Position numbers and translations under genes: made by a program. A DNA stretch of 64,000 nucleotides, taken from positions 1,550,001 to 1,614,000 of the forward strand of contig NZ_LS974202.1 of NCBI RefSeq assembly GCF_900157305.1. Reading direction: 5' to 3'. The stretch comes from Mesotoga infera (lineage in GTDB: Bacteria; Thermotogota; Thermotogae; Petrotogales; Kosmotogaceae). This document shows, one piece after another, positions 29,684 to 40,908 of this stretch (the first letter of the stretch is position 1; each line of letters opens with the position of its first letter). The notes under the pieces were generated by a model, which worked only from the letters and a program-made list of their open reading frames with translations, was not told where the DNA came from and did not search any database.

Positions 29684-30955
29684 TTATCTTGGCTTTCTTA
29701 GCACATCTATGCTGCTTTCAAAATTCGCCCGGCTATTTTGAAGAGTACTTCGGTTTAATTTCTCATACAATTCTGGCAGGGCTTTAAAGACCTCCGGGAC
29801 TATCCTCTGATCCAGAGGCATCCGGGTCATCATTTCGGCCGCTTCCGGTAAGGAGTAAGCCTCTCTGTAAGGTCTATCGGCAGTGAGAGCTTCGAAGACG
29901 TCGGCGACGGCGAGAATCTTCGCTTCGAAGGGAATCTCTTCTCCTTTCAGTCCCTGGGGGTATCCTGAACCGTTTTCTCTTTCATGGTGCGCGTATGCAT
30001 ATGGAATGTATTTATCTAGATATTTGAACTGTTCAAGCAGATCTTTTCCGCGTCGAGGGTGATCCATCATTACTTCTCTTTCGATTTCATTCAGCGGTCC
30101 TTTCTTCTTCAGTATGCTCGTAGAGATTCCGAGTTTACCTATGTCATGGAGCTTTGCTCCGTTAACGATTTCTATGAGTTTTTTTCTTTTCAACCCTAAA
30201 CGCTTTCCGAGAATCTCGGCAATTATGGCTACATTTCTCGAGTGATATGTAGTATATGGATCCTGTAATTCCCACATATGAACTATCGTCTGCAGGCCTT
30301 TTGTCTGGTGATATCTGGAAAAAGAGACGGACAAAACTTCCATCATCAAAAGAACGCCTATCAATCCGGAGATGAAGGCGTGAAATACCAGCCAGTTGTA
30401 GAGTCCGTAACCCCTTACGCTGGCATGAAGCCCGTAAGCAAATATCTTTTTGCCTTCGTCTGAAAGGATTACTCTATCGGCCATGGAGAGGCCTTCGAGA
30501 ACCTCGTGTTTGTCGATACCAACCATGACCACCACATCATCTACTGCATTCTGTGAAAGGCTGTCCATTATATTGACATACGCATAAAGCTCCTCGTTTT
30601 TCATAGATACCATGTAGTCCTTTTCCATCGTCATTCCCGAAGGTCTTTCGACTATCATGATCTCTCTCACATAAGGAAAGTCAGTCAGTATCTCCTGGAA
30701 CATGCTATCTATAAACTCCCGGTCTTGTGATATGAATGCGTTGAACATGTCATTCCATTGGAAATAACCTCTAGATATAGACGTAATAAACTGATCGACA
30801 GCTTTCCGGTAGATATCCGAGTAAACTTTGTGGGTGTATTGAATGACTTCCGACTCGAAAATATGAAAAGGCAAAAACATAAGCAAGAACATGATAAGAA
30901 AGACGGCGGAGACTACTCTGGGGCCGGCGAACTTCAGTTCCGAAAATCCTTTCAT
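29684..30955 (-). CDS. membrane HD-GYP domain protein, probable c-di-GMP phosphodiesterase
   Basis: The 423-residue protein has a first helix near residue 15 (VVSAVFLIMFLLMFLPF), an extracellular sensor region of about 150 residues, and a second helix (YNWLVFHAFISGLIGVLLMM). An HD-GYP domain follows. Catalytic motifs are intact: KLHDIGKLGI, DHPRRGKDLL, AHHERENGSGYP and ILAVADVFEAL. The outer region has the size of a CHASE4-like sensor. It would hydrolyse c-di-GMP in response to an outside signal and may oppose the GGDEF protein encoded 4 kb away. AGGAGGAATTCCG precedes the chosen ATG. Confidence 0.88.
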   Translation of the reverse strand: MKGFSELKFAGPRVVSAVFLIMFLLMFLPFHIFESEVIQYTHKVYSDIYRKAVDQFITSISRGYFQWNDMFNAFISQDREFIDSMFQEILTDFPYVREIMIVERPSGMTMEKDYMVSMKNEELYAYVNIMDSLSQNAVDDVVVMVGIDKHEVLEGLSMADRVILSDEGKKIFAYGLHASVRGYGLYNWLVFHAFISGLIGVLLMMEVLSVSFSRYHQTKGLQTIVHMWELQDPYTTYHSRNVAIIAEILGKRLGLKRKKLIEIVNGAKLHDIGKLGISTSILKKKGPLNEIEREVMMDHPRRGKDLLEQFKYLDKYIPYAYAHHERENGSGYPQGLKGEEIPFEAKILAVADVFEALTADRPYREAYSLPEAAEMMTRMPLDQRIVPEVFKALPELYEKLNRSTLQNSRANFESSIDVLRKPR

Positions 30956-31191
30956 CGGAATTCCTCCTATGTTCCACACTCCCAGTTCATTTATGGTTGA
31001 GTCTTTCGAATTAATATAAAGTATCATTCAAATTAATATATCATACGAATATTCACTTCCAATATTTCCGATAGACTCTCTCCAAAAATACTGCAAAGAA
31101 TATCGTAATATCGTAGAGAATCGCTTTGGATTACTGTGTGAAGCGATCAAAAGGCTTTTCACTTTTTGCAGGATATAGTTATTTCAGAGTG

Positions 31192-34914: not shown

Positions 34915-35850
34915 TTAGCGTACTACTCTGTTTTTTCCGCCGGACTTCGCGCTGTACAGGGCATCGTCCACACGCTTCAGTATGCTCGCCTTCGTATCTT
35001 CAGGCCTGAAGGTGGCAACTCCGAAGCTGGCCGTTACCTTGAAGCCGAGCTGTTTCTCCGTCTCTCTTTCAAAATTGGTCCTGACTTCTTCGGCAATTTC
35101 GGCAGCCTCTTTTCCATCTGTTTCAGGCAGCATTACTATGAACTCTTCGCCGCCGTACCTTACCGTGGTCCGCCTCGGTGAGATTATCTCGTTGAGTATC
35201 TTGGCAAACAGCTGCAGTACCCTGTCACCTTCGGGGTGACCCCTCGTGTCGTTCACTTTCTTGAAGTCGTCTATATCGGCCATGATTACCGAGAGAGGTT
35301 TGCATGTGGAGCAAAGACTCTCGATCTCCTCATCGAGTTTCTTCATGAAATCGCGTCTGTTCGACAGTCCTGTGAGAGGATCGCAGTTCATGAGTCTCTC
35401 GATTTCGGCATTAGCCGCCTGGAGCTCCTTATTCTTCTTTGCCAGTTCTCTCGTGAGAGAAGCCAGCTCGTCGGTTGTCTTCCACATGTTTTCCATGATA
35501 TCTCCTACTGAGAGACCTATCTTCTCTCCGAAGAACAACCAGCGAGAAGCATCTATCTTTATTACGAAGCCGCTCACAAGATGTATATTGTATCTCGAGT
35601 CGGTCATCCCCAGCCTGACGAGACCCGGCCGCTCATTTGTCATCAACTTGATCCCGTTGTCCAATATATACTTTCCGAAATTCTCTCCGACTAACTCCTT
35701 CTTGCCTCCGATCAAAGCGGAAAGTGATGGACTGTGATCCAGTATTCGACCTTCCGAGTCGAATAGAACAAGAATCGCTCCCGAAAAGTTCTCCAGACTA
35801 TCGAAAAACCTGTCCAGACTGCCCAGGATCGCCTCTCTCAGATCATTCAC
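34915..35850 (-). CDS. diguanylate cyclase (GGDEF) with N-terminal PAS-like domain
   Basis: The 311-residue protein has a PAS-like domain (residues 15-110, GAILVLFDSEGRILDHSPSL), a short coiled coil (LTRELAKKNKELQAANAEIE), and a GGDEF domain with the active site RYGGEEF. The stretch before it reads SPRRTTV, so the RxxD product-inhibition site is missing. It would make c-di-GMP in the cytoplasm. The GTG start overlaps the stop of the upstream B12-binding gene by eight bases, with GGGAAGAG as ribosome site, so the two are co-translated and probably work as one signalling unit. Confidence 0.88.
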   Translation of the reverse strand: MNDLREAILGSLDRFFDSLENFSGAILVLFDSEGRILDHSPSLSALIGGKKELVGENFGKYILDNGIKLMTNERPGLVRLGMTDSRYNIHLVSGFVIKIDASRWLFFGEKIGLSVGDIMENMWKTTDELASLTRELAKKNKELQAANAEIERLMNCDPLTGLSNRRDFMKKLDEEIESLCSTCKPLSVIMADIDDFKKVNDTRGHPEGDRVLQLFAKILNEIISPRRTTVRYGGEEFIVMLPETDGKEAAEIAEEVRTNFERETEKQLGFKVTASFGVATFRPEDTKASILKRVDDALYSAKSGGKNRVVR

Positions 35851-36949
35851 GCTCTTCCCACCAGCATTTTGCCATTTCAACGGCTTCTACCGCAGAGGAA
35901 GCCGTTCCATCGGCTCCCAATATCTTCCACAGATCTTCCGATTCGTTTATCACCAGTCCGCCGACCATGATTTTCATCCCTTTTAAGTCGCTATCGAACC
36001 TCACCGATTGTATCAACTTTTTCGTGTGAACCAGATTGAACGACATAGTAACTGAGACTGCAAGAAGAAAGGGAGTGTTTTTCTTTAGATGATTCAGAAC
36101 TTCCGAAACCGGAGTATTCGCACCCAGATAGCTGACATTCCAGCCATTAAGCTCCAGTAGATCGGCGAGAATTCTAGCTCCAAGCTCATGATACTCGTTT
36201 TGCGAACATATAACTATCGCCTTCCTTCTCGGATGGGCGAGAACGGTGTCTATCATACTGTATGTGCTGGCCATAAGTCTGTTCATGAGCGAGGTGGCAA
36301 GATGCTCCTCCGCAACTGATATCTCGCCCGTTTGCCATAGTGAGCCTATCTCGTACATCGCGGGTTGGACCACTTTGAGGTAGAAATCGGAGAGGGATCT
36401 TGCATCTTTGATAGTGTCGATTGCAATCTCCTGAAGTTCGCGATAGCTGCCCTTTAGTAGCGCGAGAACCACCTTTTGTTCTATTACCTTCCACCGTTCA
36501 TCGACATTCATTCCTATGAGAGCATCTTCCGAACTCTTCACCGATAAATCGTGAGAGGAAAGCATAGCCTCATACACTTTTATAATTTGCTCCGAACTCT
36601 CAGAAGTGAGGTGCTCTCTTATCGCTTCCATCCAGGTCTTCAAGACTTCCGGGAAGAAATCTTCCGAGAAATTTCTGGAGGTGTAAGTCTTGTAAACCCA
36701 GGGGAGCGTTCTGGCAAGCAGGTCATAATCGTTGAGTCTCAAGACGTTTGAGATAAAGCGCAGATGGTTCGAATTGTTGTCGTACATTATATAAAGCGGA
36801 TTCATACCTACAAGCTCAGAAATATCCTCTCTGGCGGACATAAGTTCATTGACTCTCGTCAGCAACCTTTCACCCTGAATCTCAAACTCCAGAGCAGCCT
36901 CAGGTGAAACGCTTAGACCCTTTCCAAAATCATCTGAAACCCGTCGCAC
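35843..36949 (-). CDS. CarH-like cobalamin-binding photoreceptor domain protein without MerR HTH
   Basis: The 368-residue protein has a helical N-terminal region of about 165 residues that is not a DNA-binding domain. A B12-binding cap (about 170-245) follows, then a Rossmann B12-binding domain. The cap contains WQTGEISVAEEH, an exact W-x9-EH match to the light-sensing motif of CarH. The lower domain has E-x-H-x-x-G (EYHELG, His254) supplying the lower axial ligand, in place of the DxHxxG of B12 enzymes. It could sense light or adenosylcobalamin and act on the overlapping GGDEF cyclase. GTG with AGGAGG six bases upstream is the start; an ATG 12 codons earlier is rejected. Confidence 0.88.
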   Translation of the reverse strand: MRRVSDDFGKGLSVSPEAALEFEIQGERLLTRVNELMSAREDISELVGMNPLYIMYDNNSNHLRFISNVLRLNDYDLLARTLPWVYKTYTSRNFSEDFFPEVLKTWMEAIREHLTSESSEQIIKVYEAMLSSHDLSVKSSEDALIGMNVDERWKVIEQKVVLALLKGSYRELQEIAIDTIKDARSLSDFYLKVVQPAMYEIGSLWQTGEISVAEEHLATSLMNRLMASTYSMIDTVLAHPRRKAIVICSQNEYHELGARILADLLELNGWNVSYLGANTPVSEVLNHLKKNTPFLLAVSVTMSFNLVHTKKLIQSVRFDSDLKGMKIMVGGLVINESEDLWKILGADGTASSAVEAVEMAKCWWEERE

Positions 36950-37003
36950 AAAAAACACCTCCTGAAACGGTTCGGTAAGATCCATGCCTTATGCCATATA
37001 ATC

Positions 37004-37166: not shown

Positions 37167-37711
37167 CTAAACTGTTGGTTTTATATTGTAGTCAACGAGT
37201 CGGTCGAAATACTCGCGGTTCTTTTCGTATTCGCGGCGGTAGATGATACTCGATGCATCGATCGCATGATCGATGGCCAGAATACCGTCGAGGTGATCTA
37301 TCTCGTGCTGCAATAGTTCGGATTCTGCATGGCCTAAATTCAGCCATTCATGTTCGATTCCTATCTCGTCTCTGTACTTCAGATCTATTGAACTGTCTCT
37401 TTCGAGACGGACCAGCAGATCGGGAAAGGACATGCAATCGTCCCACATGGTGAATTTAAATCCGCTTACACTTACGATCTGCGGGTTCACGATTACAAAG
37501 CTACCTTTTCCGAGATCGAGTGCGATTATTCTCTTCAGTATTCCGATCTGTGGCGCGGCTATACCACGGCCGAAACCGTTCTCCCGTCTGAATTCATCGA
37601 GAGTCTTCTTGAGCTGGGCAATCTGGCTTAATTTTCTTTGCTATCAAATTCCGTGACTGTAGAAGACCTTTCCCGGAGTAAAGGATTGCCTAGCAACAAA
37701 ATTTCACACAA
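37167..37711 (-). pseudogene. def: peptide deformylase, frameshifted
   Basis: Two frames together spell one deformylase. The first, from TTG (AAGGTGA upstream), reads MCEILLLGNPLLRERSSTV then TEFDSKEN and stops. The second continues one base back with TLDEFRRENGFGRGIAAPQI, the metal-site Cys in DDCMSFPDL, and HEIDH in ELLQHEIDHLDG. All three active-site motifs (GIAAPQIG, C-x-S, HExxH) are kept. The break is at an A-run (37632-37635 on the plus strand); adding one base restores about 181 residues, a normal length. It may be a recent pseudogene, a programmed -1 shift, or a sequencing error. Another def gene would be expected elsewhere in the genome. Confidence 0.8.
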
Positions 37712-37779
37712 TATATTTCACCTTCTCGAGCTTATACAGTTTAATTCTGCACAGAGAATTATTCTTGACATTAACCGTC

Positions 37780-39396
37780 CTATCTAGTCATACGATTCTC
37801 TCTTGATTTTCTTCTAATTGCTTCTCTGGCTGCAAGTTTACCGGTCAATATACACATCGGAACACCGGAAGGGCTGTAGGTCCACTTCCCAGCCTGGAGG
37901 ACACAGGGTATGGGTGTTTTAACAGAGTCAGTGACTTTCATCATGCTAGACACAACAGGTATAGGTTCTTCGAAAGACCAGCCGACGATAGATCCTTCGA
38001 AGCTGCCCACCGCTCTTTCCACTGAAAGAGGACTGCTGGAAAACGCGAAAATGACTTTATCCTTCAACTTTGGATAGATCGAATTTGAAAGAACTCCAAT
38101 GATCTTCTTTTGGAACTCTTCTTTGAACTCGCTGTACCAACCTGTTTCGTGTGCCTTCTTTACGATATCGTATTCAAAAAGAGTGCTGATTATCAGACCC
38201 GTCTTTCCGGGCGGAGCCGAGTTTCGGTCTTTGAGCACTGGTATAGATATCTCGTAGGTGTCCAGTTCACAGAATCTGTCGAGCCAGTCGAGAGCCTCCT
38301 CTTTCGAATTCCCGGACCAGTTCTTCAGAAGGTCTCTCAGTTGGCTTCGATGAATCTCGCCAAGCCCCTTCCTAGAAGGAGTGTAAAAGAAGTGACCGTT
38401 TGAAATTGCCTCAAAAACCTCAGGTGGTTCATCCACTGCGACGAAAACACTGAAAATCGAATCGGTACCATGCTTTTTTGATATCTCGGATCTAAATGTG
38501 TTAACCTTTTCAACCACGGCTTCGGGCAGACCTTCTGTTTCTAAAATGGAGTAGAGCCTCTTGAGATCGGCGGTCCACACCAGTTCATTGTACTTGTAGG
38601 ATCTTCCGCCGTTATCCACGAGTAGTTTTTTCCCTGCATGGATCTCGGTTACTTCCCTGCCTGTCCCGATGTTTCCACCGAATTGAATGATCTTTTCCTT
38701 TACGCGTTCTGCTATAGTTCCAACTCCACCTTTTGGATAGAAATAGTCCTGATAAAGATAGAAATAGCTCATAGCGAAGAAAGTAGGAGTGTTTTTGAAG
38801 AAGTGCTGATCTATGATATCCCTCAAAGACCCGTTTTTAATGATTTTTCCCAGGAATTCTTCTACGGGCATTTTCAATTTCCCTATTCTTCTTAGAGTCA
38901 AGAGAAATTTGAAGAGCCAGGGCAAATATACTTTGACAAAATGAGACTTGTTGTTTTTGAAGTCCATGAAGAGAGGATTATCTACACCATACAGAATCTC
39001 CATATCTTTCATGATTCTCCTGACAAATGAAATCACTCTCTCGATGTCTTTCTCGCTGTTTGGATACATCTTTTTTAAAAGATCGGAGTACTCTTTCACG
39101 CTTTCCTTTGAAGTCACATTTATCACGCTATCTTCTATTCCCACAGATACAGGGTTTTTGACTATTTCAATGTCGATCCCGAGTTCTTTGAGCATCGGCA
39201 GGATAATTCCCGCGCTTTCGAGCGCTTTCACTCCGCCATCAAAGAGAAAACCATCCCTTGAGAAGGAGTTGACGAGGCCGCCACACTTTTCGTTCTTCTC
39301 CAGCAAAAGAACACTGGCTCCAGCCTTTGCAAGATAAGCCGCGCCTGTCAATCCTGCTATTCCTCCACCAACAACAACAGCATCATAGACTTCCAT
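37780..39396 (-). CDS. phytoene desaturase/retinol saturase-like FAD oxidoreductase (CrtI-like)
   Basis: The 538-residue protein begins with the FAD loop DAVVVGGGIAGLTGAAYLAK and LLLEKNEKCGGLVNSF, the CrtI-family pattern. It then has a membrane-associating helical middle and a C-terminal PSGVPMCILTGKLAAREA FAD-closing segment. CrtI-like enzymes desaturate, isomerise or saturate polyenes such as carotenoids. The ATG at MEVYDAVV overlaps the SDR gene by 14 bases; the longer start is rejected. It is the last gene of an operon with the SDR and SnoaL-like genes. No phytoene synthase is in the window, so a carotenoid substrate is not shown. Confidence 0.82.
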   Translation of the reverse strand: MEVYDAVVVGGGIAGLTGAAYLAKAGASVLLLEKNEKCGGLVNSFSRDGFLFDGGVKALESAGIILPMLKELGIDIEIVKNPVSVGIEDSVINVTSKESVKEYSDLLKKMYPNSEKDIERVISFVRRIMKDMEILYGVDNPLFMDFKNNKSHFVKVYLPWLFKFLLTLRRIGKLKMPVEEFLGKIIKNGSLRDIIDQHFFKNTPTFFAMSYFYLYQDYFYPKGGVGTIAERVKEKIIQFGGNIGTGREVTEIHAGKKLLVDNGGRSYKYNELVWTADLKRLYSILETEGLPEAVVEKVNTFRSEISKKHGTDSIFSVFVAVDEPPEVFEAISNGHFFYTPSRKGLGEIHRSQLRDLLKNWSGNSKEEALDWLDRFCELDTYEISIPVLKDRNSAPPGKTGLIISTLFEYDIVKKAHETGWYSEFKEEFQKKIIGVLSNSIYPKLKDKVIFAFSSSPLSVERAVGSFEGSIVGWSFEEPIPVVSSMMKVTDSVKTPIPCVLQAGKWTYSPSGVPMCILTGKLAAREAIRRKSRENRMTR

Positions 39397-40354
39397 CTTT
39401 GAGCGCCCCCATTCGTAAGCTTTCCACCCAGAGTTTTCTAGCGATTTCCATATCAAGAGCAGGTGGAGCAGGAATTTCTTCCGTCGTCAAATTGAAGAAC
39501 TTTCCACTTATACCTTCGAGATCACTCGAAACACCAAGGTAGTAAAGAGCTTCCGCCGAAATCTCAGGCGAGCGGGAGAGTTTATCTACTATCGTTCTCT
39601 TATACCATCTGTAAAATGCGCCGTTTTCCTTCCCGGTTCCAGTTCTCACAGCTCCGGGGTGCATTGCGTTCATCGTAACTCCGCTTTCCTCGAAGTATTC
39701 ATTGAAGATCATCATGCTTAGAAGCTGGGCAGTTTTCGCAGAACCGTAGGCTCGAAGACCGCTGTAACGCCTCTTTTGCCAGTTAAGATCGTCTGGTCTT
39801 ATTCCCCACACTGCAAAACGGTGACCTTCCGAATTCACCATCAACACCCGTGCCTTCTCCTGCGCCTTAAGCTTATCTTTTATAAGATAGTTTATTACGA
39901 AGGAAGAGAGATAATTGACGGCGAATGTCGTTTCAAAACCATCCTCAGTTAATTCCCTGTGCTTCAGGAAAACTCCCGCGTTGTGTATCAGGACATCTAT
40001 CGGCTCTTTCATGGCAGAGAGTTCTTTCCCGACCCTCAAGCTATCTTTTAGGCTGCTGAAATCCGCTATCATGTAAGAGCATTCAACACCAAAATCTCGC
40101 TTGAGCTCATCGCACAGCCTTTTCGATTTCTCTTCGCTTCTGTTAATCGACAGAATCCGCGCACCATGGCTTGCGTACTTCCTGCATGTGTAGTATCCGA
40201 TTCCGGACGTTCCACCTGTGATTACCATGAGTCGATCCTTGAAATCATCTTTGCAGATCCCGGGATTTGCCTTGTTGTTTTTGATCATCGCGAAGATGTT
40301 AGACCATTTGTATTGTTTCCAATATCTGGCAATTGCGCTCTTCTGTTTCTCCAT
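39383..40354 (-). CDS. short-chain dehydrogenase/reductase (retinol dehydrogenase-like)
   Basis: The 323-residue protein has the SDR cofactor motif TGGTSGIGYYTCRKYA, the NAG motif LIHNAGVFLK and the catalytic YGSAK in LRAYGSAKTAQ. The N-terminal extension of about 35 residues and the overall pattern recall retinol dehydrogenase/WWOX-type SDRs. It probably reduces or oxidises a lipophilic alcohol or ketone using NADP(H). AGGTGTTGCCA precedes the ATG. It is ten bases after the SnoaL-like gene and overlaps the CrtI-like gene, so all three act together. Confidence 0.88.
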   Translation of the reverse strand: MEKQKSAIARYWKQYKWSNIFAMIKNNKANPGICKDDFKDRLMVITGGTSGIGYYTCRKYASHGARILSINRSEEKSKRLCDELKRDFGVECSYMIADFSSLKDSLRVGKELSAMKEPIDVLIHNAGVFLKHRELTEDGFETTFAVNYLSSFVINYLIKDKLKAQEKARVLMVNSEGHRFAVWGIRPDDLNWQKRRYSGLRAYGSAKTAQLLSMMIFNEYFEESGVTMNAMHPGAVRTGTGKENGAFYRWYKRTIVDKLSRSPEISAEALYYLGVSSDLEGISGKFFNLTTEEIPAPPALDMEIARKLWVESLRMGALKDGSL

Positions 40355-40363
40355 TGGCAACAC

Positions 40364-40807
40364 CTATCCGAAATGCTTTCTCATGAACTTTCTGTAAGGT
40401 TTTCTGAATGCCGGGATGTTGTCGAAAATGTCGCCCCAGAGGTCGTAATAGTCCCTCTGCTCGATGATCTTGCCTCCTTCATTCAGAGAAAGTCGGCTCG
40501 CGCCATAAATTACCGAAGTCCTAGTTTTCTTGAAGAGAATTGTCATCTCCCATTCCACAAAGACAGTTCTATCTTCCATCACGACTCTCAAGACGGCCAT
40601 TTTCAGCTCTTTAGATCTCTTTGCAAGCCTTTCTGTCATCTTCTTGAATTCCTCAAGCCCTCTGATCTCTTGAATCGTATCTTTAAATATAATATTCTCG
40701 TCGTAATAGGGCAAAATATGCGACCAATCGGGTTTTCCTTCTGTGTTGTATGTCTTTGACCAGAGCTCGCGTATTTGATCTGCACTTTCTATAGAGAATT
40801 CATCCAT
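40364..40807 (-). CDS. SnoaL/NTF2-like protein
   Basis: This 147-residue protein has the cone-shaped NTF2-like pattern: an N-terminal helix (ADQIRELWSKTYN), a WSHILPYYDENIIFKD segment, and a beta sheet ending in EQRDYYDLWGDIF. Members bind or isomerise hydrophobic or polyketide-like ligands. The last residues (PYRKFMRKHFG) are basic. It begins the operon with the SDR and CrtI-like genes, so it may handle the same lipid-like substrate. GAGGTGTTT precedes the ATG. Confidence 0.75.
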   Translation of the reverse strand: MDEFSIESADQIRELWSKTYNTEGKPDWSHILPYYDENIIFKDTIQEIRGLEEFKKMTERLAKRSKELKMAVLRVVMEDRTVFVEWEMTILFKKTRTSVIYGASRLSLNEGGKIIEQRDYYDLWGDIFDNIPAFRKPYRKFMRKHFG

Positions 40808-40908
40808 AAACACCTCGTTATTTGGTTGAAGCTTCTGCCTTTAGACACCGGCAAAAAGCAGTTTGATTATTACATTCATTCATGGAGTTTTGTCAAAATG
40901 GGTTTGAT

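Follow-up and report, generated by a model that had tools for sequence, protein, structure and literature searches.

A probable vitamin B12-based light sensor with a phycobiliprotein-like globin front, encoded with an overlapping diguanylate cyclase gene in Mesotoga infera

Introduction

What does a CarH-like B12 domain that carries no DNA-binding domain sense, and what does it control, in an anaerobe such as Mesotoga infera? The question arises from a preliminary description of a 64,000-nucleotide window (positions 1550001-1614000 of the single-contig genome, 2.97 Mb), which had recognised such a domain behind an N-terminal region of another kind. The gene concerned (35843..36949 of the window and, like every window feature given below, on the minus strand) is an open reading frame with a GTG start and encodes 368 aa. 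An alternative in-frame ATG at 36985 would give 380 aa, but orthologues within the genus begin at the position of the GTG at 36949, which was therefore taken as the start. We find that the product is a probable vitamin B12-based light sensor whose globin front is related to cyanobacterial light-harvesting proteins. The sensor type is already known; the odd feature is a host cell that apparently lacks a route to the second pigment.

Results

Both motifs named in the preliminary description were located. An exact W-x9-EH (W205-QTGEISVAE-E215-H216; 36302..36337) marks the upper-face adenosyl pocket, and an exact E-x-H-x-x-G (E252-Y-H254-E-L-G257; 36179..36196) contains the predicted lower axial ligand, H254. 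The second motif is not specific to light sensors, being common to B12 enzymes too. W-x9-EH by itself arose in 1.6% of shuffles of the sensor protein, and the ordered set GxxW/EH/ExHxxG/GxxxP in none of 20,000. The genome has nine B12-domain matches, and W-x9-EH is absent from all seven loci inspected besides the sensor. Across an alignment of 55 relatives W205, E215, H216 and H254 are invariant, and the ordered motif set persists in relatives as distant as about 21-28% identity. A published signature of light-responsive B12 domains (SignatureFinder) comprises GxxW, EH, GxxH and GxxxP (PMC11796333). Three of these four elements are present in the sensor, including GSLW for GxxW and GANTP for GxxxP (36110..36124); the GxxH element, within NEYHELG, reads NEYH with N in place of G, and NxxH is the form found across the Mesotoga-type clade.

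Residues 157-357 match Pfam B12-binding_2 (4.8e-15) and B12-binding (1.2e-18), and together with the structural model these place a four-helix cap (PF02607) at residues 151-235 (36245..36499) and a Rossmann-type B12-binding domain (PF02310) at residues 241-368 (35846..36229). Among PDB sequences the sensor matches photocobilins best (1.6e-22), with CtMerR and CarH ranking lower. In an AlphaFold2 model of the protein (pLDDT 88.2) the B12 domain superposes best on SasPcob and AbPcob (8j2w/8j2y; Z 25.5, 2.1-2.3 A over 208-212 residues), followed by CtMerR and then by B12 enzymes and CarH (CarH Z 20.1), and a Foldseek search with the full-length model ranked B12-domain proteins alone. The description of this region as a CarH-type light-sensing domain is thus borne out by motifs, sequence matches and fold. 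In the sequence alignment W205 falls on Trp61 of SasPcob, from which W205 is predicted to pack against the upper face of B12 as the preliminary description expected. Q206 occupies the position of the His that forms the bis-His light state of CarH. SasPcob likewise has Gln after its Trp (PMC11796333), and a CarH-style bis-His light state is therefore not expected in the Mesotoga protein, judging from these residues. The genome also encodes another CarH-like B12 protein (217 aa; G000:C1:757787-758389; L052:1489-2142), which has EH and EEYHEIG without W-x9-EH, sits between aldo-keto reductase and ABC permease genes, and occurs in genus genomes where the sensor was not found as well (e.g. L047, L049).

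The N-terminal half gave nothing significant in a Pfam scan, in agreement with the earlier statement that it holds no MerR helix-turn-helix. A profile search of this region had been suggested; with genus sequences only it returned no significant PDB match, and the assignment needed a family alignment of the 55 full-length relatives among 80 loci recovered by a scan of our genome collection. The resulting profile aligns with two separate parts of SasPcob, of which the second lies in the biliverdin globin at its C-terminus (i-E 2e-6), and it also matches allophycocyanins (best 4.6e-6); individually, 22 of the 55 family members match Pfam Phycobilisome (best 4.3e-10). Modelled alone, the domain (residues 13-140; 36530..36913) reaches pLDDT 91.9. 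Its fold matches all belong to the globin superfamily (allophycocyanins, which dominate the top of the Foldseek list, smURFP, the SasPcob globin, RsbR and heme globins), with Foldseek E-values of 4e-3 to 5e-2. VIA-align gave Z 13.8 for smURFP and Z 11.8 for SasPcob globin residues 227-345, where, according to the tool itself, values near 13 are possible for helical domains. Because the independent profile match backs these weak fold scores, the assignment is firm: the N-terminus is a globin of the phycobiliprotein/photoglobin kind. What had been described as a different helical region is indeed helical, and can now be given this identity.

The expectation that the output would be something other than DNA binding is supported by the neighbouring downstream gene. 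A diguanylate cyclase gene (34915..35850), with a likely and conserved GTG start at 35850 that overlaps the end of the sensor gene by 8 bp, encodes a weakly PAS-like N-terminus, a coiled coil and a GGDEF domain (PF00990, 1.5e-42; 34927..35388) with GGEEF; inspection by eye showed no inhibitory RxxD I-site. The sensor was found in only 5/10 genus genomes, and the pair is kept in 5/5 full-length genus members as well as in three genomes of another family in the class; within the genus it stays together while the flanking genes differ between some genomes. Beyond this group the pairing recurs in many phyla: among 64 genes adjoining relatives' sensors, a count that omits about twenty loci without a close neighbour or with short or distant ones and so does not give a frequency for the whole family, motifs identified 30 histidine kinases and 26 GGDEF proteins (56/64 classified), and Pfam 26 GGDEF and 32 HATPase_c. 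When outputs (GGDEF or kinase) are mapped on a quick tree, the label switches at least eight times by parsimony, and the sensor falls in a well-supported clade on a long branch, comprising Mesotoga and one genome each of Halanaerobium and Thermodesulfovibrio, in all of which the partner is GGDEF. The cyclase is most likely the output switched by the sensor. About 4 kb from its gene lies that of a membrane protein with HD_5 (HD-GYP type; 29684-31027), a likely c-di-GMP phosphodiesterase. In another genus (L014, G010:C66) the orthologous sensor is split over several frames, through MAG error or decay, next to an intact downstream GGDEF gene.

Discussion

The sensor has the photocobilin features that sequence and predicted fold can show, namely a CarH-like B12 domain with W-EH and E/DxH, a globin in the same chain and, by profile alignment, equivalents of SasPcob Asp270 and Trp296. 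The earlier label of a CarH-like protein without a DNA-binding domain holds for the domain type and is better replaced, for the whole, by a photocobilin-type protein than by a truncated CarH. SasPcob (8j2w, 8j2x) and AbDPcob (8j2y) share with it the combination of CarH-type AdoCbl domain and phycobiliprotein-like globin, as well as W-EH and the lower His; SasPcob also shares the Gln after Trp, and AbDPcob the diguanylate cyclase output. They differ in that the Mesotoga globin is N-terminal, its cyclase is a separate, overlapping gene, its host has no known biliverdin route, and NEYH stands in place of GxxH. The reversed domain order is already on record, since photocobilins have been grouped, among other ways, by whether the AdoCbl domain is N- or C-terminal (PMC10979010). 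CarH/LitR (5c8a-5c8f) resemble the sensor in their AdoCbl pocket motifs and B12-domain fold (Z about 20), whereas the sensor lacks their MerR-type DNA-binding domain and the His beside Trp. AerR and the AppA SCHIC domain likewise have a B12-type domain with no DNA-binding domain of its own (7te2, Z 20.7), but match weakly in sequence (1.5e-5, 0.085), lack a photoglobin and have other partners. Photoglobin-B12 proteins, which Schneider et al. in 2022 (cited in PMC10151467 and PMC10979010) reportedly described as joining a globin to a B12 domain and lying close to signalling genes, have the same composition and setting and differ in that the Mesotoga clade lacks the Cys of CXQD.

From the computed domains, motifs, predicted fold and conserved gene pair we infer a mode of AdoCbl binding and of light switching, and consider it reasonably likely that a standalone photocobilin-type receptor, globin first and CarH-type AdoCbl domain second, controls the diguanylate cyclase of the overlapping gene in trans. 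Imported corrinoid would be adenosylated by the PduO-type corrinoid adenosyltransferase that the genome encodes and bound base-off, H254 lying on the lower face and the adenosyl group packing on W205 and E215-H216. The globin would shield the edge of the corrin; it may carry a scavenged linear tetrapyrrole or nothing at all. In the dark AdoCbl would keep the sensor as a head-to-tail dimer. Green light would break the Co-C bond, the adenosyl group would depart and, with Q206 replacing the CarH His as in SasPcob, aquo- or hydroxocobalamin would be left; the oligomer state or shape of the lit sensor would then be altered, changing its contact with the coiled coil or PAS-like part of the cyclase and hence the c-di-GMP output. 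Photocobilins provide the precedent, with an AdoCbl dark state, light cleavage, quaternary change and changed cyclase activity, also in trans (PMC10979010). In AbDPcob, conversion to the light state increases cyclase kcat by a factor of more than 10, and photocobilins that stand alone change the activity of a cyclase supplied in trans; with SasPcob lacking biliverdin, the cyclase was activated in the dark and seemingly inhibited in the light (PMC10979010). From this precedent the direction of the light effect on the Mesotoga cyclase would not be predictable. Several points weigh against the mechanism. Since the branch leading to the Mesotoga-type clade is long, SasPcob behaviour may not carry over, and NxxH for GxxH, the recovery of the sensor from only half of the genus genomes and the failure to find a PilZ receptor in the genome may also count against it. 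TtCarH is reported to require oxygen for effective monomerisation (PMC11796333), which would be awkward in an anaerobe.

Light, B12 supply and oxygen are indistinguishable by sequence as the input of the sensor. One alternative is accordingly a sensor of B12 status, or of redox state or oxygen, in which apo, AdoCbl and oxidised cobalamin forms, rather than light, set cyclase activity. The genome has only one TP_methylase and no ALAD, and no corrin pathway was found in it, which argues against de novo synthesis of corrin, heme or bilin by known routes; corrinoid must then be imported, and a cell could profit from monitoring how much of it is available. The cyclase activity of AbDPcob falls below that of the apo form on AdoCbl binding alone (PMC10979010), and light is rarely met by strict anaerobes. 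Against this stand the retained adenosyl-pocket W and EH residues, which have been linked to light responsiveness, and a DNA photolyase in the same genome, as in 10/17 family genomes overall. A heliorhodopsin has also been reported from Mesotoga infera (PMC7807009), and the view that a light sensor would be unexpected in such a bacterium is weakened by these two findings. We regard the B12-status reading as unlikely.

Less likely again is a full dual-chromophore photocobilin, whose globin would carry biliverdin or some other bilin and so widen the sensing range to red light. In the profile alignment only, D57 (36779..36781) and W84 (36698..36700) correspond to SasPcob Asp270, a key biliverdin contact, and Trp296 (numbering per PMC10979010, registered via W61/E71/H72); W84 is invariant in 53/53 relatives, and the nearest folds include those of smURFP and allophycocyanins. 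The photoglobin CXQD motif has a Cys (PMC10151467), however, which is Ile or Val within the genus, leaving the sensor globin without the bilin-site Cys in the alignment. Heme oxygenase (PF01126) was found in none of 17 family genomes and, with ALAD missing from the sensor's own genome too, a bilin would need scavenging or some route other than those searched. Finally, a role as corrinoid shuttle of the MtbC/MtaC type, serving a methyltransferase system, is very improbable: NCBIfam scores to such proteins are moderate, and six URO-D-family proteins, a family that can include such partners, are encoded in the genome, but the score is 52.1 bits against a curated cut-off of 215.3, no methyltransferase gene is adjacent, and the globin domain, W-x9-EH and the GGDEF or kinase partner are foreign to shuttle proteins.

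The function of standalone photocobilins was called less clear in the 2024 photocobilin study (PMC10979010). Here the 8-bp gene overlap indicates a natural partner for one of them, and such pairs turn up across many phyla with either of two interchangeable outputs, so that function becomes testable with a cognate pair. A recognisable heme oxygenase scored above cut-off in only 5/51 genomes with sensor relatives, a count that covers PF01126 only and includes many MAGs of uncertain completeness, and this raises the question of the globin's purpose. Tentatively, a large class of two-gene light modules, each a globin-B12 sensor with a separate cyclase or histidine kinase, might work without biliverdin, including in anaerobes unable to make tetrapyrroles, with the globin as an apo structural lid or a binder of another ligand and B12 alone reporting light under anoxia.

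Control of carotenoid genes, as by CarH, was considered and rejected: an upstream CrtI-like oxidoreductase scores far below CrtI cut-offs, and phytoene synthase has no match in the genome. Riboswitch control was likewise discounted, no riboswitch being found in the window. Between the CrtI-like gene and the sensor, a peptide deformylase frame (37167-37739) is broken by a frameshift or sequence error, with 107 aa open against an intact 182-aa orthologue in another genome (G003). The CrtI-like FAD oxidoreductase itself belongs to a run (37780-40813) with a short-chain dehydrogenase and a SnoaL-like protein, which we take to be reminiscent of proteobacterial light-induced operons.
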